Origin: Halopseudomonas aestusnigri
GTDB lineage: Bacteria; Pseudomonadota; Gammaproteobacteria; Pseudomonadales; Pseudomonadaceae
Assembly (NCBI RefSeq): GCF_002197985.1
Contig: NZ_NBYK01000006.1
Coordinates: forward strand, 19,618 to 83,617
Reading direction: 5' to 3'
DNA length: 64,000 bases
The position numbers and the translations under genes are program-made. The notes below the pieces were generated by a model, which was not told the origin of the DNA, made no database searches, and worked only from the letters and a program-made list of their open reading frames with translations. Position 1 is the stretch's first letter, and each line of letters begins with the position of its first letter. Of the stretch, positions 36,937 through 46,411 are shown in pieces.

Positions 36937-39000
36937 TCAGCCATCCTTGCCGGCAGCCACCTCAACACCCACTCTATCCTCCAGCAGCGCACTGGTCGCG
37001 GTCTGCACATAGGCCTTGAGCTGCTCCTGCAGATCGTCCGGCACCTGTGCCTGCTCGGTGACAGTGGCCTGCGGACCGAGCTGGTAGCGGTAGGCACGGG
37101 GCTGCTCACCACGCGGCTGCACCACCAGTTCATCACCGCGCAACAGCCCCACCGTCTGACCGCCGCCTGACGGCTTGATCACGCCAAAGCCCTTGTCACC
37201 GGCAGGCAGCGCCAGCAGATCACGCCCCCAGCACTGCTGCTGCACCGCGCCGCCGAGGCGCCCCATGATGGTCGGCACTACGTCAACCTGGGTGCCGACA
37301 ATGTCATTGCGCTGGCCAAAGCGCTCGGTGATACCGGGCGCGATCAGCAGCAGGGGCACGTTGAAGCGCAGCAGATCGAGATCGGTCAGCTGGCGCGGCG
37401 TGCCGAATCCATGATCGCCGATCACCACAAACAGCGTGTCCTTGTACCAGGGCTCATTGCGGACCTGATCGAAGAACCGGCCCAGCGCCCAGTCGGAATA
37501 GCGCATGGCGGTCAGGTGCTCGTCGTTAACACCCTGCCCGCTCACGGCACCCACCGGCAGCGGGTCTGGCAACGCGTAAGGCGTATGGTTGGACAGGGTC
37601 TGCAGCAGCGCGTAGAACGGGCGCGTATGATCCAGCGCATTCAGTTCGGTGACAGCGCGGTCAAACATGTCCTGATCGGATACGCCCCAGGTCGGGTCGG
37701 AAAAGACCGGATTGACGTAGTCATTGCGGCCGATGAAGTGGCGCATGCCCTGCTTGCCGAAAAAGCCCTTCTGATTGTCCCAGGCAAAGTCGCCGTTATA
37801 GACATACAGGTCGTCAAAACCGCGCTGGCTCAGCAGCTGCGGCAACCCGGAAAACGCATGGCCACCCTCCGGCTCCTGCATCAGGTACTCGAAGCCCGGC
37901 AGGTTGGGGAAGCAGGCCATGGTCGCGAACATGCCCTGATGGGTGTGGGTGCCGTTGGAGAAGTAGCGGGTAAACAGCAACCCCTCCCTGCTCAGCCTGT
38001 CGAACTCGGGGGTAATGCCCAGCGGCGAGCCCAGCGCACCGGTGTAGTAGCCGGCAAAGCTCTCCATCAGTACCACCACCACATTGCGCACCGGCAATAC
38101 GCTATCGACAGCGGGTTCAGATACGCGACGCACCGGCGCCAGCTCAGCGTCAATCAGCCGGTCATGTTCGGTCAACAGCAGGCTTCGGGTAATCCCGGTC
38201 GCCTGGTCATCGTCCATCAAACCAAGCCAGGCGTTATTGCGATGATCAGAGAACTGCGCCTTGGCGGCCGAATACAGGGTCAGCGCCGGCGTCAGGCCGA
38301 GTTGATTGGCAAAGGTCGAATCGGTGGTGAAAGCGTCCCCCCAGCGCAGCGGCGGGCCCTGACGCAGGGTGCCACGAGCCAGAACCGTTGAACTGACCAG
38401 CAACAGCAGCAGCACCGAGATGCGAGCTGTCAGCGCACCCAGACGGCTGTGCCTACGGTTCGCTGCGGTCGCGGGCAGCCTGGTACTGCGGTCCAGCCAG
38501 CGAAAACCGCGATACATCAGCCAACTGACCAGCGCCATACCCAGCAGCAAGCGCACCACCGGAAAGCCATACCAGAGCATGCTCAGTACAGTCGCCGGAT
38601 CTTCCTGCAGATACTGGAACACCAGCGTGTTCAGGCGCTGGTGAAACTCACGGTAGAAGCTCAGCTCGACAGTGCCAAGCAGGCAAAGCAGCACGGTTGC
38701 CAGCGTCAGCCACAGGCACTGCAGCGTGCGCATGGCCATCAGCCGCGCGCTGAGGACGGTCAGCATCAGCGGCGCACCGACGATAACGACGACCCGCAGG
38801 TCGAAACGCAGGCCGTTGAAGAAGGCTTCCAGCAAATCGCCACGGGTTACCTCGGCGGCCAGCTCCCAGTTCCAGGCCAGCAGCGCGCCGCGCAGCAGGG
38901 TCAGCATGAGCGTCAGCGCCGCCAGCGCACCGACGATAAATATCAGTTGACCGCGCAGGCCAACCACCGGCCGGCTGGCCGGAGCAGTAGAAAGGGTCAT
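36937..39000 (-). CDS. LTA synthase family sulfatase-fold membrane phosphotransferase
   Basis: The 687-residue protein has five N-terminal membrane helices (to about residue 210) and a periplasmic alkaline-phosphatase-like domain. The metal site and nucleophile are visible: VVVLMESFAGYY, then NGTHTHQGMFATMACFPNLPG with the catalytic Thr, and FVVIGDHGFG. Relatives transfer phosphoglycerol or phosphoethanolamine from phospholipids to glycans or lipid A, releasing diacylglycerol. It is the last gene of a run warA-inaA-dgkA-LTAS behind colRS; DgkA would recycle the diacylglycerol. ATG at 39000 is preferred over TTG at 39003. Confidence 0.88.
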   Translation of the reverse strand: MTLSTAPASRPVVGLRGQLIFIVGALAALTLMLTLLRGALLAWNWELAAEVTRGDLLEAFFNGLRFDLRVVVIVGAPLMLTVLSARLMAMRTLQCLWLTLATVLLCLLGTVELSFYREFHQRLNTLVFQYLQEDPATVLSMLWYGFPVVRLLLGMALVSWLMYRGFRWLDRSTRLPATAANRRHSRLGALTARISVLLLLLVSSTVLARGTLRQGPPLRWGDAFTTDSTFANQLGLTPALTLYSAAKAQFSDHRNNAWLGLMDDDQATGITRSLLLTEHDRLIDAELAPVRRVSEPAVDSVLPVRNVVVVLMESFAGYYTGALGSPLGITPEFDRLSREGLLFTRYFSNGTHTHQGMFATMACFPNLPGFEYLMQEPEGGHAFSGLPQLLSQRGFDDLYVYNGDFAWDNQKGFFGKQGMRHFIGRNDYVNPVFSDPTWGVSDQDMFDRAVTELNALDHTRPFYALLQTLSNHTPYALPDPLPVGAVSGQGVNDEHLTAMRYSDWALGRFFDQVRNEPWYKDTLFVVIGDHGFGTPRQLTDLDLLRFNVPLLLIAPGITERFGQRNDIVGTQVDVVPTIMGRLGGAVQQQCWGRDLLALPAGDKGFGVIKPSGGGQTVGLLRGDELVVQPRGEQPRAYRYQLGPQATVTEQAQVPDDLQEQLKAYVQTATSALLEDRVGVEVAAGKDG

Positions 39001-39026
39001 CAAACAGGTTCCACAGACAGGCCCGC

Positions 39027-39431
39027 TCAGGCGGGCGAGAACAGAATCAGGCTCCAGACGCTGGTGATCAGCAGCAACGCCAGCATTTGTGCGGCGCTGC
39101 CCAGATCCTTGGCGCGCTTGGACAGCGGGTGCAGCTCAAGCGAAATACGATCCACTACCGCCTCTATGGCCGAATTGATCAGCTCAACGATCAGTGCCAG
39201 CAGCACCACCCCGACCATCAGTGCGCGCTCTACGCCGCTGACCGGCAACCAGAACGCCAGCGGGATCAGCACTACGGCCAAAAACAGCAACTGGCGGAAG
39301 GCGGCCTCAAAGGTCAAGGCTGCCCGCAGGCCGGCGAGCGAGTAACCCGCCGCCTTGATGATCCTGACCACACCTCCGCGACTTTTCAGTTTCAGCGCAT
39401 CGTCAGCGCCGGACAGGGGCTCAGGCCGCAT
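39027..39431 (-). CDS. dgkA: Diacylglycerol kinase
   Basis: The 134-residue integral membrane enzyme has three helices and the signature ELINSAIEAVVDRISLELHPLSKRAKDLGSAAQ near residues 83-115. It phosphorylates diacylglycerol to phosphatidic acid. It overlaps the end of the inaA-like gene by 11 bp and precedes an LTA-synthase-type gene by 26 bp, so a diacylglycerol producer and its recycler share an operon. Confidence 0.95.
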   Translation of the reverse strand: MRPEPLSGADDALKLKSRGGVVRIIKAAGYSLAGLRAALTFEAAFRQLLFLAVVLIPLAFWLPVSGVERALMVGVVLLALIVELINSAIEAVVDRISLELHPLSKRAKDLGSAAQMLALLLITSVWSLILFSPA

Positions 39432-40131
39432 GACGGCTGTCCCCGTTACCGCCGGTCAGGCTCTGATAGCAGGCCAGAAAATACTGCCAATCCTCGTCAG
39501 GCATCCCTTCGCGGTGGCGGCGCAGCTGGTCCAGGTCATGCCGCACCGCTCGACTGCGCAGCAGGCGACGACGGCTCTTCTCCAAATCCAGCAGTGCGAC
39601 CTCGGCCCGGTCGCCGTTAACCCGGACATAGATATGCTTGGCGTACAGACAACCGTGCTGACGGCGCCCCCCGTGCAGCCGCCGCAGCACCACAGCCAAC
39701 TGCTGCAGTACGGCACGTCGCCGGGTTACTGTCTCATCGCTGGCGTACCACTGGCCCAGACTGACAAAACCAGTCAGCTCTTCGGTCACCAGCAACCCTT
39801 GCCACTGTCCTTGATGCTCACGGGCAGCACAAAAAACCAGTTTGGGTACCGGCACACCAAGTTGCTCGCAGGCACGCAGCGCCAGCTCCTCCCTCAGCAC
39901 CGTGGGCCGGCCAAGAGGGTGCAACCAGGTACGATAGACATGCCCAACCTGACGCTTGCTGTACAAGCGGGGCAAGCCGCGACTCTGGGGCGGCAGCAAC
40001 TTGACCCCGCTCTGGCCACCGCGGCGCTGATTCGGCTCCTCTACCCACTTGCCGTCCATTTCCCACCAACGCTCGAAGCGTGCCTGACCAAAGGATGGCA
40101 ATCGGCCCCGAGCCGAGATCACGGCGCTCAT
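39421..40131 (-). CDS. inaA: LPS kinase-like protein, InaA/WarB family
   Basis: This 236-residue protein of the Kdo/WaaP kinase-like fold contains RLYSKRQVGHVYRTWLHP, LREELALRACEQLGVPVPKLVF, a catalytic-loop-like LRRLHGGRRQHGCLYAKHIYVR and ALLDLEKSRRRLLR (DFG-like position). In Pseudomonas the gene beside the ColRS methyltransferase gene is inaA/warB, implicated in LPS modification (family knowledge). The start overlaps the methyltransferase stop by 4 nt (ATGA), with AAGG at 7 nt. Confidence 0.85.
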   Translation of the reverse strand: MSAVISARGRLPSFGQARFERWWEMDGKWVEEPNQRRGGQSGVKLLPPQSRGLPRLYSKRQVGHVYRTWLHPLGRPTVLREELALRACEQLGVPVPKLVFCAAREHQGQWQGLLVTEELTGFVSLGQWYASDETVTRRRAVLQQLAVVLRRLHGGRRQHGCLYAKHIYVRVNGDRAEVALLDLEKSRRRLLRSRAVRHDLDQLRRHREGMPDEDWQYFLACYQSLTGGNGDSRHAA

Positions 40132-40820
40132 GCGTCCGCCTTGCGCAGCACGTAGACCCGCCACATGGCGTAGCCGGGCAGGAAATCGTGGTGGCTGATT
40201 TCGCTGAAGCCCGCCTCGCGAAACTCGGCTTCAATGACCTCGCGGGCCACAACAAAGCGGTTCTGATTCTGGCCGGCACGTCCTCGCTTTGCCCGGCGCG
40301 CTTCCAGACGACTGCGCTTCCAGGACTTGTAATTGCCATCGACCCAGAGCGAGATGATCAGGGTATCGCGGGTGACACGGGCGCATTCACGCAGCAGGGC
40401 AAGACGGTGCTCATGGTCGGCAACGTGGTGAATCAGCCGCATGCAGAAGATGCTGTCGACCGCGTTATCGCCCAGATCGATATCAAAGGCAGAGGTCTGG
40501 AACGCCTTGACCCGCCTTACCACCTCCGTCGGCTGGCCGGCCAGTGCGGTCTGGATCATGTCCGCCGAATTGTCGGCAGCCAGAATGACCCGATTCGGCG
40601 CCTCGGCCAGCAACGGCCAGAAGCGGCCAGCGCCGCAGGGCAGGTCCAGCACCAGATTGGGATCACCGGCGTCTTTCAGCGCGCGGCGGGCCAACTGCAT
40701 GTCACGCCAGTTGGACAAACGACGCGACAAACCGGCCTGATGCTTGTCGAAATACTGTTGTGAGTGATCGCGGTCGTACTTGTCGGAGAACGCGAGCTCG
40801 ATCGGTTTGCTTTCGGACAT
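40128..40820 (-). CDS. warA: Class I SAM-dependent methyltransferase, WarA-like
   Basis: The 230-residue enzyme has motif I NLVLDLPCGAGRFWPLLAE near residue 55, an acidic post-motif ILAADNSADMI, and IFCMRLIHHVADHEHRLALLRECARV. Its place between colRS and an InaA/WarB gene matches warA of pseudomonads, described in LPS biosynthesis. The methyl acceptor is not visible from sequence. A motif shared with the LTA-synthase gene promoter at 42.9 kb lies about 60-80 bp before its start. Confidence 0.85.
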   Translation of the reverse strand: MSESKPIELAFSDKYDRDHSQQYFDKHQAGLSRRLSNWRDMQLARRALKDAGDPNLVLDLPCGAGRFWPLLAEAPNRVILAADNSADMIQTALAGQPTEVVRRVKAFQTSAFDIDLGDNAVDSIFCMRLIHHVADHEHRLALLRECARVTRDTLIISLWVDGNYKSWKRSRLEARRAKRGRAGQNQNRFVVAREVIEAEFREAGFSEISHHDFLPGYAMWRVYVLRKADA

Positions 40821-40878
40821 GACAATAACCCTGGTGGGAGTAGGTGCTGCCAGACTAGGCGCCCACGGATCAAGGTCG

Positions 40879-40903
40879 TGTCAAAGCGATGTCAAAATTT
40901 CGT
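40879..40903 (-). promoter_or_regulatory. Putative ColR box upstream of warA
   Basis: On the minus strand ACGAAATTTTGACA (40890-40903) is followed by TCGC and TTTGACA (40879-40885), so TTTGACA occurs twice at an 11-bp period. The same arrangement, nearly base for base, precedes the divergent LTA-synthase-type gene (42927-42951) in the same orientation relative to that gene. Eleven-bp direct repeats are what OmpR/PhoB-class regulators such as ColR bind. Confidence 0.6.
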
Positions 40904-40958
40904 GAAAAGCCAGAGGCCGAGCGATATCGGCCCGCGCGCTCGGCGGTGCAGCGGGCAA

Positions 40959-42221
40959 TCAACCCAGCCGCACATCGAAACAGCTGCCGCCGGCGGCCAG
41001 CGAATGCATGCTGACTGACCAGCCCTGATGGGCGCAGATACGCTTGACCAGCGACAGCCCCAGCCCCAGCCCTTCACCACGGGCCTGGTTGCCACGGACA
41101 AAGGGTTCGAAGATGTCGCTTTGCTGGTCGGTTGGCACCCCGGGCCCGGTATCTTCCACGCGGAAGCAGCCCGCCCCCAGCAGCAATCGAACCTGCCCCT
41201 GTTCGGTGTAGTGCAGCGCATTGCGCAGCAGATTGGACATGACCGTGCCGAGCAATCCCGGATGATACTGGCCGCTATCCTCCGCCTCGACGATCAGCTC
41301 AAAACCCAGGCCCTTGTCGGCAAAGGCGCCCTGCCAGCGCTCGACCTGCTCCTGCGCAACCGAGAGCAAGGACGCATTGCCGGTCATCCTGACCGGCTGG
41401 CCCTTGGCTCGCGCCAGCAGCAGGAAGGTACCAACCAGCTCGCGCATCTCCTCGGCAGCTCGGGCGATGCGCTCGACCTGCCGTTGCTCGCGCTCGCTCA
41501 ACTCGGCCGCTTCCAGCAGCTCGGTCGAGGTGGCGATAATCATCAACGGCGTGCGCAGTTCGTGACTGACATCGCCGGTAAACAGCCGTTCGCGCTCCAG
41601 CGACAGACGCAGGCGGCTGAGGGTGGAATCGAAGGCCTCGGCCAGGTGGCCAACCTCGTCGTCCGGGTATTCCGGCGCCAGTGGCGGTGCCAGCGGCAGC
41701 AATTGATCCCGGTGTCGCACCTGACCGGCCAGCCGGATGATCGGCGCCAGAATCTTTTGTGCCATCAGCAAACCCAGCAGACAGCCCAGCAGCACACTCA
41801 GCAGGAAGCCGGCAAATACTACGGCAAACAGCACCCGCTCGCGGGCCTCGAACTCAGCCTGCTCCTGAACCAGAATAAAACGCTGCGCGCCAATCTCGCG
41901 AACGTAGACATAGGCAGCCTGATCGTCGCCCACCAGTTCGCTGAAGCCCCCGTCGAGCGAGCGCAGCGACTCCGGTATCTCATAGCCCGGCATGTGAGAG
42001 GCATACAGCCGGGTCTTGCTGTCGAGCCGGGGCGGCTGACCGCGGGCCAGGTCCTGCTCCAGTACGGTAGTCAGTTCCTCGCTCATCTCCTGGGAGACCA
42101 GATGCTCCTCGACAAAATGCACAATGCCGACAATCCCCAGCGAAAACACCCCGCTGACCGCCAGCGTCATCAAGGTGAAGGCAATTACGATACGCCGGCG
42201 CAGCGGCTGTTTGCGAATCAT
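40959..42221 (-). CDS. colS: Sensor histidine kinase ColS
   Basis: This 420-residue kinase has two membrane helices (about 11-34 and 131-152) around a roughly 95-residue periplasmic domain, HAMP (about 152-210), HisKA with His220 in TGDVSHELRTPLMII, and HATPase with GEGLGLGLSLVKRI. Periplasmic His35, Glu38 and Glu-x-x-Glu pairs (120/123, 125/128) sit where metal-sensing residues of P. putida ColS are described, from memory. It overlaps colR by 4 nt. ColS responds to excess zinc and iron in other pseudomonads. Confidence 0.92.
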   Translation of the reverse strand: MIRKQPLRRRIVIAFTLMTLAVSGVFSLGIVGIVHFVEEHLVSQEMSEELTTVLEQDLARGQPPRLDSKTRLYASHMPGYEIPESLRSLDGGFSELVGDDQAAYVYVREIGAQRFILVQEQAEFEARERVLFAVVFAGFLLSVLLGCLLGLLMAQKILAPIIRLAGQVRHRDQLLPLAPPLAPEYPDDEVGHLAEAFDSTLSRLRLSLERERLFTGDVSHELRTPLMIIATSTELLEAAELSEREQRQVERIARAAEEMRELVGTFLLLARAKGQPVRMTGNASLLSVAQEQVERWQGAFADKGLGFELIVEAEDSGQYHPGLLGTVMSNLLRNALHYTEQGQVRLLLGAGCFRVEDTGPGVPTDQQSDIFEPFVRGNQARGEGLGLGLSLVKRICAHQGWSVSMHSLAAGGSCFDVRLG

Positions 42222-42895
42222 TGCGCCGGCTCCGAAAGGCTGTAACCAACCCCGTGCACGGTGTGAATCAGCGGCGTTTCAAAGGGTTTGTCGACGATCT
42301 GACGCAACTGGTGAATATGGCTGCGCAGGCTGTCACTGTCGGGTAGCTCGTCGCCCCAGAGCGCCTCTTCCAGCACAGTACGGCGAATCACCGCCGGGCT
42401 CTTGCGCATCAGCACTTCCAGCAGCTTGAGCCCGACCGGGTTGAGCTTGAGCGCCTTGCCGGCACGGCTGACCTGAAGGGTATCAAGGTCATAGCTCAGA
42501 TCGCCGACCTCCAGTCGATGACGACCGCCACCGCTGCTGCGGCGCAGGATGGCTTCAATACGGGCTACCAGTTCGGATAGCGCAAAGGGTTTGAGCAGGT
42601 AATCATCGGCGCCAACCTTCAGGCCCTTGAGCCGATCGTCCAGCGCATCACGCGCGGTCAGCATGATGATCGGCGTGTCACGACCGGCGTCCTCGCGCAG
42701 CCGCTGACACAGCTGATAGCCGTCCATGCCCGGCAGCATGATATCCAGCACAATCAGATCGTAGTGCTCGCTGACCGCCAGATGCAGCCCCGAAACCCCA
42801 TCCTGGGCGCAGTCCACCGTGTAGCCCTTGAGCTGCAGGTAGTCCATCACGTTGGCGAGGATATCGCGGTTATCCTCAATGACCAGAATACGCAT
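42218..42895 (-). CDS. colR: Response regulator ColR
   Basis: The 225-residue OmpR-type regulator begins MRILVIEDNRDILANVMDYLQLKGYTVDCAQDG, with phosphoacceptor Asp51 in LIVLDIMLPGMDGYQL and KPFALSELVARIEAILRR. It ends with a winged helix containing DSDSLRSHIHQLRQIVDKPF, all very close to P. aeruginosa ColR. It is first in the minus-strand run colR-colS, and divergent from an LTA-synthase-type gene. It regulates envelope stress and LPS-modifying genes. Confidence 0.94.
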   Translation of the reverse strand: MRILVIEDNRDILANVMDYLQLKGYTVDCAQDGVSGLHLAVSEHYDLIVLDIMLPGMDGYQLCQRLREDAGRDTPIIMLTARDALDDRLKGLKVGADDYLLKPFALSELVARIEAILRRSSGGGRHRLEVGDLSYDLDTLQVSRAGKALKLNPVGLKLLEVLMRKSPAVIRRTVLEEALWGDELPDSDSLRSHIHQLRQIVDKPFETPLIHTVHGVGYSLSEPAQ

Positions 42896-42926
42896 GCAGG
42901 AGCTCTCCAGAAAACCACACGGCTTG

Positions 42927-42951
42927 ACGAAATTTTCACAGCGCGTTGACG
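42927..42951 (+). promoter_or_regulatory. Putative ColR box upstream of the LTA-synthase-type gene
   Basis: ACGAAATTTTCACA (42927-42940), GCGC, then GTTGACG (42945-42951). TTTCACA and GTTGACG lie 11 bp apart. Aligned with the box before warA (40879-40903 on the other strand), 21 of 25 positions agree. It ends 46 bp before the ATG at 42998 and also lies about 30 bp upstream of colR, so it could act in both directions. Confidence 0.6.
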
Positions 42952-42997
42952 CAGCGCCGACAGCAAGATCACCACACTGCGACGGTCGATTTCAACT

Positions 42998-44971
42998 ATG
43001 GACTGTCACATGCCCCTGCTCAAATCCGCCCAGGCCCGTTTCCTTGGCTTGCTCGCAGCCCTCTGGCTCGGTGTTTTCGTTGTCACCCGTTCGATCCTGT
43101 TGCTGACCCACCTGGGCGAAGCGCAGCTCAGCGCCAGCGGTGTGCTGCGGCTGTATGGCGAAGGAATGATCTATGACCTGACCTTCCTGCTCTACGCCTT
43201 CGCGCCACTGGCGCTCTACCTGCTGCTGTGCCCTGCCAGGGTCTGGCGCAAGCGCTGGCATCTGCGTCTGCTGCAGGCAGCCATGACCTTCGGCGTCTTC
43301 CTGATGCTGTTCACTGCGGTCGCCGAATGGCTGTTCTGGGACGAGTTCGGGGTGCGCTTCAACTTCATCGCGGTCGACTATCTGGTCTACTCCGACGAGG
43401 TGATCAACAACATCCTCGAGTCCTACCCGGTCTATCCGCTACTGGCAGCGCTGACCGTCATCGCCGTGATCACCACCGCGCTGCTGCAACCACGAGTTCG
43501 CCGCATCGCCGCAGCCCCCTTGCTGAGCTGGCCCGAACGCGGCATCAGCCTGGCAGGCGCAGTTACAGCCGTCGCCCTGAGCATTCTGGTGGTTGGGCAG
43601 GGCTTTCCGCGCAGCAGCGGCGGCAACGCCTATCAGCACGAGCTGGCCAGCAACGGGCCGTACCAGTTCTTTGCCGCCTTCCGTAACAACGAACTGGACT
43701 ACACCCAGTTCTACCCGCAACTGCCCGAGGCAACCGCTGCGAGCGCCCTGCGTGAGGAAGTCAGCGAAGCAAATGCCCGCTTTGTCGACACCGACCCGAT
43801 GGGCGTTCGCCGGCAGATCGACAACCCCGGCCAGCCGCGCAAGCTGAACCTGATTCTGGTCACCATCGAAAGCCTCAGCGCCAAGTACATGGGCAGCGAA
43901 GGCGATGCCCGCAACCTGACCCCAAACCTCGATGCGCTGCGCAAGCAGAGCCTCTACTTCAGCCAGTTCTACGCCACCGGCACCCGCACCACCCGCGGCC
44001 TGGAAGCCATCACCCTGTCGATCCCGCCGACCCCCGGCCGCTCGATCGTCAAGCGCATCGGCCGCGAAACCGGGTTTGCCAGCCTCGGCCAGCAACTCGG
44101 CGCGCAGGGCTACGACAGCGTGTTTGTCTACGGCGGTCGTGGCTACTTCGACAACATGAACGCCTTCTTCGCCGGCAACGGCTACCGGGTAGTCGATCAG
44201 GCCAGCGTACCTGACGAGGAAGTGACCTTCACCAACGCCTGGGGTATGAGCGACGAAGACCTCTACAACCAGACCCTGAAGCTGGCCGACGCCGATGCCG
44301 CTGCAGGCAAGCCGTTCCTGCTGCAGCTGATGACTACCTCCAACCACCGCCCCTACAGCTATCCGGAAGGTCGCATCGACATCCCCTCCGGCACCGGCCG
44401 CGAAGGCGCGGTGAAATACACCGACTATGCCATCGGCCAGTTCCTCGCGCAGGCGCGTGAGAAACCCTGGTTCAAGGACACTGTCTTCGTGTTCGTTGCC
44501 GACCACACCGCCGGCAGCGCCGGCAGGGAAGACCTGCCGGTGCACAACTACCACATCCCGCTGTTCGTCTACGCCCCAGGCCTGATCGGCGCCCGCGAGG
44601 ACAGCCGCGTGGCCAGCCAGATCGATCTGGCGCCGACGCTGATGGGCCTGCTGAACATGGATTACACCTCGACCTTCTTCGGCCACAACCTGCTGCGCCC
44701 GGATACCGGCCCGGGGCGGGCGCTGATCGGTAACTATCAACATCTGGGCCTGTTTGACGGTCAGGATCTGGCGATCCTCAGCCCACGCGGCCTGATCCGT
44801 CGGCACGACGACGCCATGGGCCTGAGCGTAGAAAAGGCGGCGCAGGCCACTGATCCGCTGGTCCGTCGCGCCATCGCCTACTACGAGGGCGCCAGCTACG
44901 ACTACGGCCACCAGCTATTGGCGTGGCAACCTTCCAGCAGCCACCCTGTCCGTCAGGTAAGCCAGCGATGA
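42998..44971 (+). CDS. LTA synthase family sulfatase-fold membrane phosphotransferase
   Basis: This 657-residue protein has five N-terminal helices (to about residue 205) and a periplasmic catalytic domain with ILVTIESLSAKYMG, the nucleophile segment ATGTRTTRGLEAITLSIPPTPG, and FVFVADHTAGSAG. It is only distantly similar to the other LTA-synthase-type protein at 36937-39000. It likely transfers a phospholipid head group in the periplasm; acceptor unknown. The start may be ATG 42998 or 43010. PAP2 and dual-specificity phosphatase genes follow with overlapping ends. Confidence 0.88.
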   Translation: MDCHMPLLKSAQARFLGLLAALWLGVFVVTRSILLLTHLGEAQLSASGVLRLYGEGMIYDLTFLLYAFAPLALYLLLCPARVWRKRWHLRLLQAAMTFGVFLMLFTAVAEWLFWDEFGVRFNFIAVDYLVYSDEVINNILESYPVYPLLAALTVIAVITTALLQPRVRRIAAAPLLSWPERGISLAGAVTAVALSILVVGQGFPRSSGGNAYQHELASNGPYQFFAAFRNNELDYTQFYPQLPEATAASALREEVSEANARFVDTDPMGVRRQIDNPGQPRKLNLILVTIESLSAKYMGSEGDARNLTPNLDALRKQSLYFSQFYATGTRTTRGLEAITLSIPPTPGRSIVKRIGRETGFASLGQQLGAQGYDSVFVYGGRGYFDNMNAFFAGNGYRVVDQASVPDEEVTFTNAWGMSDEDLYNQTLKLADADAAAGKPFLLQLMTTSNHRPYSYPEGRIDIPSGTGREGAVKYTDYAIGQFLAQAREKPWFKDTVFVFVADHTAGSAGREDLPVHNYHIPLFVYAPGLIGAREDSRVASQIDLAPTLMGLLNMDYTSTFFGHNLLRPDTGPGRALIGNYQHLGLFDGQDLAILSPRGLIRRHDDAMGLSVEKAAQATDPLVRRAIAYYEGASYDYGHQLLAWQPSSSHPVRQVSQR

Positions 44972-45711
44972 GCCGCAGCGCGCGCCCAACCAGCCCCTTT
45001 CCGGTCGGACGCTGGCTGCTGATTCCGGCTGCGGTCATGGCGCTGATGCTGGTGTTTGACACCAGCACGCTGGACTTCTGGTTCTCCGACCTGTTCTACG
45101 TACCGGGCGACGGCTTCGTCGGCCGCCACAGTTTCTTCCTCGAAGATATCCTGCACGACCGGGTCAAGCAGGCGGTGATCGTGATCGGCGTGCTGGCGAT
45201 TATCGGGTTTGTGCTGAGCCTGCTGCCGACCCGGCTGCGGCGCTGGCGGCCGGAACTGGGCTATCTGGTGCTGTCGCTGGCACTGGCTACCAGCCTGGTC
45301 ACCCCGCTCAAGCAACTGACCAACGTGCCCTGCCCCTGGAGTCTGGTGCAATACGGCGGCACGGAGATTCACACACCGCTGCTGTCGGCCCGCCCGGACA
45401 CTAACAAGGCCGGGCGCTGCTGGCCCGGCGGTCATGCCTCCTCCGGGTTCTCCCTGCTGGCCTTGTTCTTTGCCCTGCGTGACCGCTTTCCCCGGGCCGC
45501 CCGCGGCGCCCTGATCGGCGCACTGGCTCTGGGCACCGTGCTGTCACTCGGGCGCACCATGCAGGGCGCGCATTTCCTCTCGCACAACGTCTGGACCCTG
45601 TTGTTCGACTGGTGCATCTGTCTGCTCTGCTACCGGCTGCTGCTGTATCGGCCAGCCGTCGCAGCCCGTAACGTCAGCCAGGCTGGGGAGCTCCGCCATG
45701 AAGCCGCGTAA
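44968..45711 (+). CDS. PAP2 family lipid phosphatase/phosphotransferase
   Basis: The 247-residue membrane protein has about six helices and the three PAP2 motifs: Lys115 in KQLTNVPCP, PGGHAS at 153-158, and SLGRTMQGAHFLSH at 193-206. In the first motif (K-x6-R-P) the arginine is replaced by Cys122. Such proteins remove or transfer phosphate from isoprenyl or glycerolipid phosphates, or from undecaprenyl pyrophosphate to lipid A. The ATG overlaps the preceding stop (ATGA) and its own end overlaps the next gene by 14 bp. Confidence 0.87.
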   Translation: MSRSARPTSPFPVGRWLLIPAAVMALMLVFDTSTLDFWFSDLFYVPGDGFVGRHSFFLEDILHDRVKQAVIVIGVLAIIGFVLSLLPTRLRRWRPELGYLVLSLALATSLVTPLKQLTNVPCPWSLVQYGGTEIHTPLLSARPDTNKAGRCWPGGHASSGFSLLALFFALRDRFPRAARGALIGALALGTVLSLGRTMQGAHFLSHNVWTLLFDWCICLLCYRLLLYRPAVAARNVSQAGELRHEAA

Positions 45712-46411
45712 CATATTGCTTGCAACCGGCCTGCCGTTGGCGCTGCTGAGCATCATCGCTCTGGCCCGGCCCGACGTCTTGCGCAGCGACCACGTCGACA
45801 TGCCGGCCCCCACCCTCAGCGCCGGGCAGGCACGTCCAGCCAACTGGGCCACCCCGATTGATCCGCAGCTGCGTCTGTATCGCATGGGCCCCAACCTGTA
45901 TCGCAGCGCCCTGCCGGACAGCGGAGACCTGTCGACGCTGCATGCGCAAGGTATCCATACCGTGATCAATTTCTACCAGCGCAACGACGACTGGCTCGAC
46001 GGCAGCGAGCTGACCGCCATCCACGAACCACTGCACGCCGACCGGGTAACCGACACCGACGTGATCCGCGTGCTGCGCGCGATCCGCGCCAGTCAGCAGC
46101 AGGGTGGTGTGCTGATCCACTGCAAGCACGGGCAAAACCGCACCGGGCTGATGGCCGCCATGTACCGCATGGTGTTCGACGGCTGGAGCCGCGAACAGGC
46201 GCTGGCCGAGATGCTCGAAGGCGGCTTCGGCGACGGAGAGCTGATGACCGATGCGGTCGGCTACCTGAATCGGGTCGACGTGGCGGCCGTGCGCGCCGCA
46301 ATAGACGGCGGCAGCTGCAGCACCAGCGTGCTGGCGCTGTGTCACGTCAGCGACTGGTGGCGCCACCAGAGCAGTGAGATCGATCAGCAGGTCGCGCAGC
46401 TGGAAGACTGA
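45698..46411 (+). CDS. Dual-specificity/tyrosine phosphatase family protein, membrane-anchored or exported
   Basis: The 237-residue protein has an N-terminal hydrophobic segment (about 6-23) and a phosphatase domain with the loop HCKHGQNRTG: catalytic Cys142 and Arg148 of C-x5-R. GPNLYRSALP and HTVINFYQRNDDW are typical of the bacterial DSP group found beside PAP2 genes. A lipid or head-group phosphate substrate is plausible from context, not shown. GGGGAG is 7 nt before the ATG, inside the PAP2 gene. It ends 4 bp from the convergent lepB stop. Confidence 0.85.
   Translation: MKPRNILLATGLPLALLSIIALARPDVLRSDHVDMPAPTLSAGQARPANWATPIDPQLRLYRMGPNLYRSALPDSGDLSTLHAQGIHTVINFYQRNDDWLDGSELTAIHEPLHADRVTDTDVIRVLRAIRASQQQGGVLIHCKHGQNRTGLMAAMYRMVFDGWSREQALAEMLEGGFGDGELMTDAVGYLNRVDVAAVRAAIDGGSCSTSVLALCHVSDWWRHQSSEIDQQVAQLED

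Follow-up and report, generated by a model that had tools for sequence, protein, structure and literature searches.

Predicted ColR operators with a tandem-pentamer layout on both sides of colRS in Halopseudomonas aestusnigri

Gene content and tandem arrays at the colRS locus

The window, by which we mean the whole 64-kb stretch of DNA analyzed here, contains a single colRS locus on the minus strand, with the sensor kinase gene colS at 40959-42221 and the OmpR-family response regulator gene colR at 42218-42895. The nearest named relative of ColR is that of Halopseudomonas oceani (97% identical), and the segment presumed to be its recognition helix reads SDSLRSHIHQLRQ here versus SDSLRSHVHQLRQ in the P. 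putida-group loci L010 and L040. The pair was assigned to ColRS on the grounds of this ColR orthologue with a P. putida-type recognition helix and of the FExRE metal motif at residues 124 to 128 of ColS. In Pseudomonas putida ColS, the glutamates of this motif are required for zinc and iron sensing (PMC4074579).

On the colS side, also on the minus strand, lie warA, a class I methyltransferase gene (Methyltransf_25; 40128-40820) named after the sequence-only reading and PMC8805031; warB/inaA, a Kdo/WaaP-family LPS kinase gene (39421-40164; below the NCBIfam cut-off for InaA); the diacylglycerol kinase gene dgkA (39027-39431); and a gene for a second sulfatase/LTA-synthase-type membrane enzyme (36937-39003). 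The first three overlap one another in turn; the fourth, 23 bp away, is probably the last gene of the warA operon. The same gene order, second LTA-synthase-type gene included, is found in L003, L053 and L047, the latter without a dgkA match. On the colR side, the plus strand carries an LTA-synthase/phosphoglycerol-transferase-type gene (42998-44971; all NCBIfam matches below cut-offs), followed by a PAP2-family phosphatase gene (44923-45711) that overlaps it and corresponds in family and position to P. putida PP0900, and by a gene for a dual-specificity/tyrosine-phosphatase-like protein (45698-46411) that overlaps the PAP2 gene. Translation of the LTA-synthase-type gene may instead start from the ATG at 43010 (MPLLKSAQ...); the protein of the relative L206, read from its first in-frame start, begins MPRLRVAQ. 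We infer that each flanking gene set forms one operon. Two distinct sulfatase/LTA-synthase-type enzymes are encoded beside this one colRS locus, one in each cluster.

The genes colS and colR sit between two tandem boxes, which the sequence-only reading had described as matching and as placed before warA on the minus strand and before the LTA-synthase-type gene on the plus strand. The 24-letter pattern ACGAAATTTTSACANCGCNTTGAC has exact matches at 40880-40903 (minus strand) and 42927-42950 (plus strand), ahead of warA and of the gene that diverges from colR. The distance to the start codon, given in that reading as about 45 to 60 bp, is 58 bp before warA (40820) and 46 bp before 42998, the earliest start available to the LTA-synthase-type gene. 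Elsewhere in the window, the pattern had no match at up to three mismatches (0 in 100 shuffles), and a scan of the whole genome (3.83 Mb) at the same tolerance returned just these two, versus none for the reversed-pattern control. The 11-bp period noted earlier is also correct. Regarding the extent of the boxes, the 24-letter core held, but the first repeat had been missed, and each array begins one element earlier. Thus, the array upstream of warA reads TTCAC-N6-TTGAC-N6-TTGAC-N6-TTGAT at 40869-40906 on the minus strand (E1, TTCAC, 40902-40906; E2, TTGAC, 40891-40895; E3, TTGAC, 40880-40884; E4, TTGAT, 40869-40873). The array between colR and the LTA-synthase-type gene (42924-42961, plus strand) reads TTGAC-N6-TTCAC-N6-TTGAC at 42924-42950 (E1, TTGAC, 42924-42928; E2, TTCAC, 42935-42939; E3, TTGAC, 42946-42950), followed in register by the degenerate, weak E4 CCGAC at 42957-42961. 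Both have the general form TTSAC-N6-TTSAC-N6-TTGAC plus a degenerate fourth element, that is, direct repeats of three to four elements with the 11-bp period expected for OmpR-family regulators. Exact TTSAC-N6-TTSAC-N6-TTSAC occurs at these two places only in the genome, and allowing one mismatch gave four places, among them a one-element shift of the warA array, versus two in the control.

Comparison with footprinted ColR sites

P. putida is already known to have ColR sites flanking colRS (PMC2689224); there, ColR bound and activated PP0903 (10-fold) and PP0900, footprints and lacZ data exist at PP0903 and PP0900/colR, and the authors noted two direct repeats in the sites. The seven DNase-footprinted sites in Table 1 of that paper were turned into a weight matrix. 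With the 16-base matrix, the two boxes ranked first and second of 127,970 window positions (15.99 and 15.58 bits; the next position scored 14.48), and they were again first and second, of 127,948 positions, with a 27-base version. The strict published consensus, YYNASNNYTTTTTSAC, is matched by both boxes at 14 of 16 letters, with A in place of Y/T at core positions 8 and 9; position 9, A in both boxes, is T throughout the seven published sites. Scanning the whole genome with this consensus at up to one mismatch missed both boxes and gave 69 matches versus 103 in the control. The colRS loci of a second genus in the family (g14, e.g., L180) and of Alcanivorax (L058) have the AAATTTT core variant too. 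When the pentamers were searched for in the seven published sites, exact TTSAC was found at E2 in 7, at E1 in 5 and at E3 in 2.

The window and the P. putida locus (Kivistik et al. 2009, PMC2689224) share the regulator, the same two places around colRS, a T-rich core plus SAC in direct repeats, and a site some 60 nt ahead of the warA-equivalent gene; that both flanking genes are activated is published there and predicted here. They differ in the core (AAATTTT versus a pure T tract), in the number of repeats (three to four in register versus the two direct repeats of the paper), in the first divergent gene (LTA-synthase-type ahead of PAP2 versus PP0900, itself PAP2), and in dgkA, which is inside the warA cluster here and away from it in P. 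putida, with a site of its own. In the extracts of PMC8306577 and PMC9952513, we found no ColR operator data.

A local ColR regulon, as the sequence-only reading had proposed, fits the rest of the genome, in which there is no further exact array and looser matches are not clearly above the control. The three-element array with a T tract at up to three mismatches gave 19 places, four of which are the two boxes and their shifted registers, versus 27 for the reversed pattern, and a two-element T-tract pattern at up to one mismatch gave 39 versus 33. A genome-wide ColR regulon was not retained, as looser matches showed no clear excess over the reversed-pattern control, although weaker sites may exist. 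The other genome matches were two exact two-element patterns (L087 and L088), one array with a single mismatch (C6:150812, L086) and four exact strict-consensus matches (L140 to L143); near all of these, no match to the window's ten genes was found except for a 38% ColR match in L143. A search of this genome for eptA-type genes (PF08019), which belong to another branch of the ColR regulon, found none.

Recurrence in relatives and promoter register

In order to follow the boxes across relatives, 80 named loci were gathered by ColR, of which the 63 with at least 70% ColR identity were used and 17 set aside. Regions of 200 bases were cut where possible, the window included, which gave 63 colR-divergent and 55 warA regions. 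A TTSAC pair at exactly 11 bp, pointing toward the target, was present in 40 of the 63 and 24 of the 55 and absent from the remaining 23 and 31; the opposite strand had none in either set. Other spacings from 6 to 33 bp on the sense strand were found in at most two regions, except for spacing 22 (11 and 5). Anchoring by the published matrix retained 49/63 colR-divergent and 53/55 warA regions; in the others (14 and 2), the sense strand offered no acceptable site. The better score was on the antisense strand in 7/63 and 1/55. With one mismatch permitted in the outer elements, four-element arrays were found at both promoters of an Azonexus MAG (L062) and at the warA promoter of Alcanivorax and Alloalcanivorax (L058 and L061).

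This strand bias bears on the possibility that the intergenic box chiefly autoregulates colR rather than serving the LTA-synthase-type operon. The array does start close to colR, 28 bp ahead of its start codon and within a shared gap of 102 bp, but both the array and its putative -10 point to the divergent gene, and none of the 63 regions had an 11-bp TTSAC pair toward colR. In P. putida, the colR direction responded neither to ColR (PMC2689224) nor to metals (PMC4074579), and autoregulation is therefore the less likely use of this box; we consider it improbable.

Within the genus (37 genomes), the exact three-element array was found in 13 genomes, with two control matches in all, and every one of the 25 places listed for it (overlapping registers included) lay within 1.5 kb of colR, colS or warA. 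A ColR orthologue (>370 bits) is present in 15 of the 37, including all 13 array genomes, and the other two carry near-arrays. The resulting association (arrays in 13/15 genomes with ColR versus 0/22 without it; Fisher P = 3e-8) is confounded by linkage. A warA with more than 70% identity was found in the same 15 genomes, and the colRS-warA module comes and goes as a whole. Given this confounding, we put the weight on the comparison between linked and unlinked warA copies. All 16 colRS-linked copies in the genus had two or more exact TTSAC pentamers with the 11-bp period, versus 0/3 of the unlinked paralogues (only three copies, with no colS in the stretch examined), which instead all carry TTAAG-N6-TTAAG (CTTAAG-N5-CTTAAG), the published BqsR geometry. 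At the level of the family (298 genomes), the exact array was found in 142, against 13 control matches counted; it stood beside colR, colS or warA in 25 of 30 loci examined and, in ten genomes of one genus chosen for having two to four arrays each, in 18 of 30 arrays.

These data also bear on whether another OmpR-family regulator, of the BqsR/PmrA/CopR type, binds the boxes, with colRS as a mere neighbor. The genus does have other response regulators at 47 to 53% identity to ColR, and the published BqsR operators share the geometry (PMC4682146), with 6 bp between pentamers and as many as four or five in succession. However, the P. putida counterparts of the boxes bind ColR (PMC2689224), the exact arrays in the genus are all at colRS, the three warA paralogues without colS nearby have TTAAG-N6-TTAAG in their place, and the pentamers of the window boxes are TTSAC, with no TTAAG-N6-TTAAG. 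We regard binding by such a regulator as distinctly unlikely.

The second warA copies (60 to 63% identity) are at L280 (G030:C270:31873-32529), L282 (G024:C33:224056-224721) and L283 (G012:C2:20436-21104). By eye, all three are near a thermostable-hemolysin-like gene, with a warB-like gene between in L280 and L282, and the operator type seems to switch with genomic context in these copies.

The arrays are in a fixed register with a downstream hexamer. In the window, a putative -10 of the warA promoter (TAGTCT, 40852-40857, minus strand) begins 11 bp after E4, and that of the LTA-synthase-type operon (CACACT, 42973-42978, plus strand) is at the same offset; the best -35-like hexamer at spacers of 15 to 19 bp has at most 3/6 matches at both promoters. 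After removal of near-duplicates, which left 24 colR-divergent and 26 warA promoters, a hexamer xAxxxT was found at this single offset (50-55 from E1) in 20/24 and 24/26, respectively, while any other offset from 40 to 62 had it in at most 3 and 5 promoters. In the same sets, E3 was conserved as NTSAC in 21/24 and 20/26, and E4 was clearly weaker than E3, chiefly in the colR-divergent set. That the boxes are ordinary sigma-70 -35 elements (TTGACA is indeed present at E3 of the warA box) or chance repeats is scarcely credible, since this TTGACA is 21 bp from the -10, the hexamers at spacers 15 to 19 match so poorly, a consensus scan of 39000-43200 found no sigma-70 promoter, and chance is excluded by the shuffles, the genome-wide pattern search and the uniqueness of the exact array.

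ColR as the probable activator of both envelope gene clusters

The best explanation, which we hold with high confidence, is that both boxes are ColR operators that would turn on the neighboring cell-envelope genes. The ranks with the footprint-based matrix, the recurrence at the same two places in relatives and the published data for the PP0900/colR and PP0903 promoters (PMC2689224) argue for it, and they support the sequence-only reading, which had taken the boxes for likely ColR sites. As the first gene of the divergent cluster, the LTA-synthase-type gene is a predicted ColR target, and its operon is a probable one; the gene is also the first divergent gene in other pseudomonads, e.g., L019 and L030.

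In the mechanism that we propose, ColS would phosphorylate ColR, probably upon metal excess, and dimers of phosphorylated ColR would occupy the tandem TTSAC pentamers, one per helical turn, probably as two dimers in tandem. The T-rich E1-E2 pair is the counterpart of the footprinted P. putida core, and the E3-E4 pair, whose end is 11 bp from the -10, would take the place of the -35 element. Once bound, ColR would bring in RNA polymerase, with a presumed sigma contact, in the manner of PhoP/PhoB-class activators. The genes thereby activated would be warA-warB-dgkA-(LTA-synthase-like) on the colS side and (LTA-synthase-like)-PAP2-phosphatase on the colR side. Zinc induction has been published for P. 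putida ColR targets (PMC4074579).

The role of E3-E4 as a -35 substitute is proposed by analogy with two known systems. In Salmonella, the PhoP box is similarly placed, ca. 12 nt upstream of the predicted -10 and overlapping the -35 in one architecture (PMC3335776); its sequence and regulator are different, and the ColR arrays add a second pair upstream. The BqsR operators of P. aeruginosa (TTAAG-N6-TTAAG; PMC4682146) likewise consist of pentamers with 6-bp spacing, four of them at one promoter, where the last overlaps the -35 and pentamers 3 and 4 are critical. In contrast to these, the window has TTSAC, another regulator and a T-rich E1-E2 stretch.

With respect to function, LTA-synthase-type enzymes are expected to release diacylglycerol from phosphatidylglycerol, and DgkA, encoded in the partner gene cluster, would presumably recycle it. 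We would go one step further only tentatively, with the balance tilting against it: in this Halopseudomonas lineage, ColRS could be a self-contained cassette with no strong targets beyond its two flanks, coupling the LTA-synthase-type transferase, DgkA and the PAP2 phosphatase through four-pentamer operators in which the proximal pair stands in for the -35. We also considered lsfS, an LTA-synthase-family gene of S. stutzeri (PMC12125118), and found no tie to the colRS-adjacent gene in the extract.

In the literature search, PMC2689224 alone joined ColR, ColS, response regulator, Pseudomonas and direct repeat. No paper was found for ColR and ColS with Halopseudomonas or Stutzerimonas, and ColRS combined with LTA synthase or its synonyms did not appear among the matches listed, in a search with most subscription journals outside its reach. 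Our additions are modest: the three to four elements keep a register tied to the -10, the LTA-synthase-type operon joins the predicted targets, and similar sites are not in excess in the rest of this genome. They extend the known ColR arrangement to another genus, and the sharper operator model (TTSAC repeated every 11 bp, in as many as four copies, at a set distance from the -10) could serve to locate ColR targets in further genomes. Being a probable target of ColR, the LTA-synthase-type operon also offers a Gram-negative envelope function that is testable under zinc or iron excess.

Several loci outside the species carry related arrangements. In genomes of one genus of the family, g15 (L207, L209, L211, L213, L214, L222, L228 and L233), a TTSAC array precedes a small gene, lipoprotein-like by eye, located near PAP2 and LTA-synthase-type genes and, in several, ca. 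5.4 kb from the warA array; this gene is likely an extra ColR target. Five g11 genomes (L236 to L240) have a gene for a ColS-like kinase (58 to 59% identical to the window ColS) followed by a TTSAC array, the gene after which is unrelated in four and warA-like in L239. One of them, G046, has this locus (L236) besides an ordinary colRS-warA locus (L242), and ColRS modules seem to have been duplicated. Finally, response regulators of Vibrio, Photobacterium and Shewanella (L070 to L073 and L075 to L077), 40 to 44% identical to ColR, have TTCAC-N6-TTCAC on the strand opposite to their own gene, ca. 16 to 34 bp before its start codon, which suggests that they use a related pentamer code.
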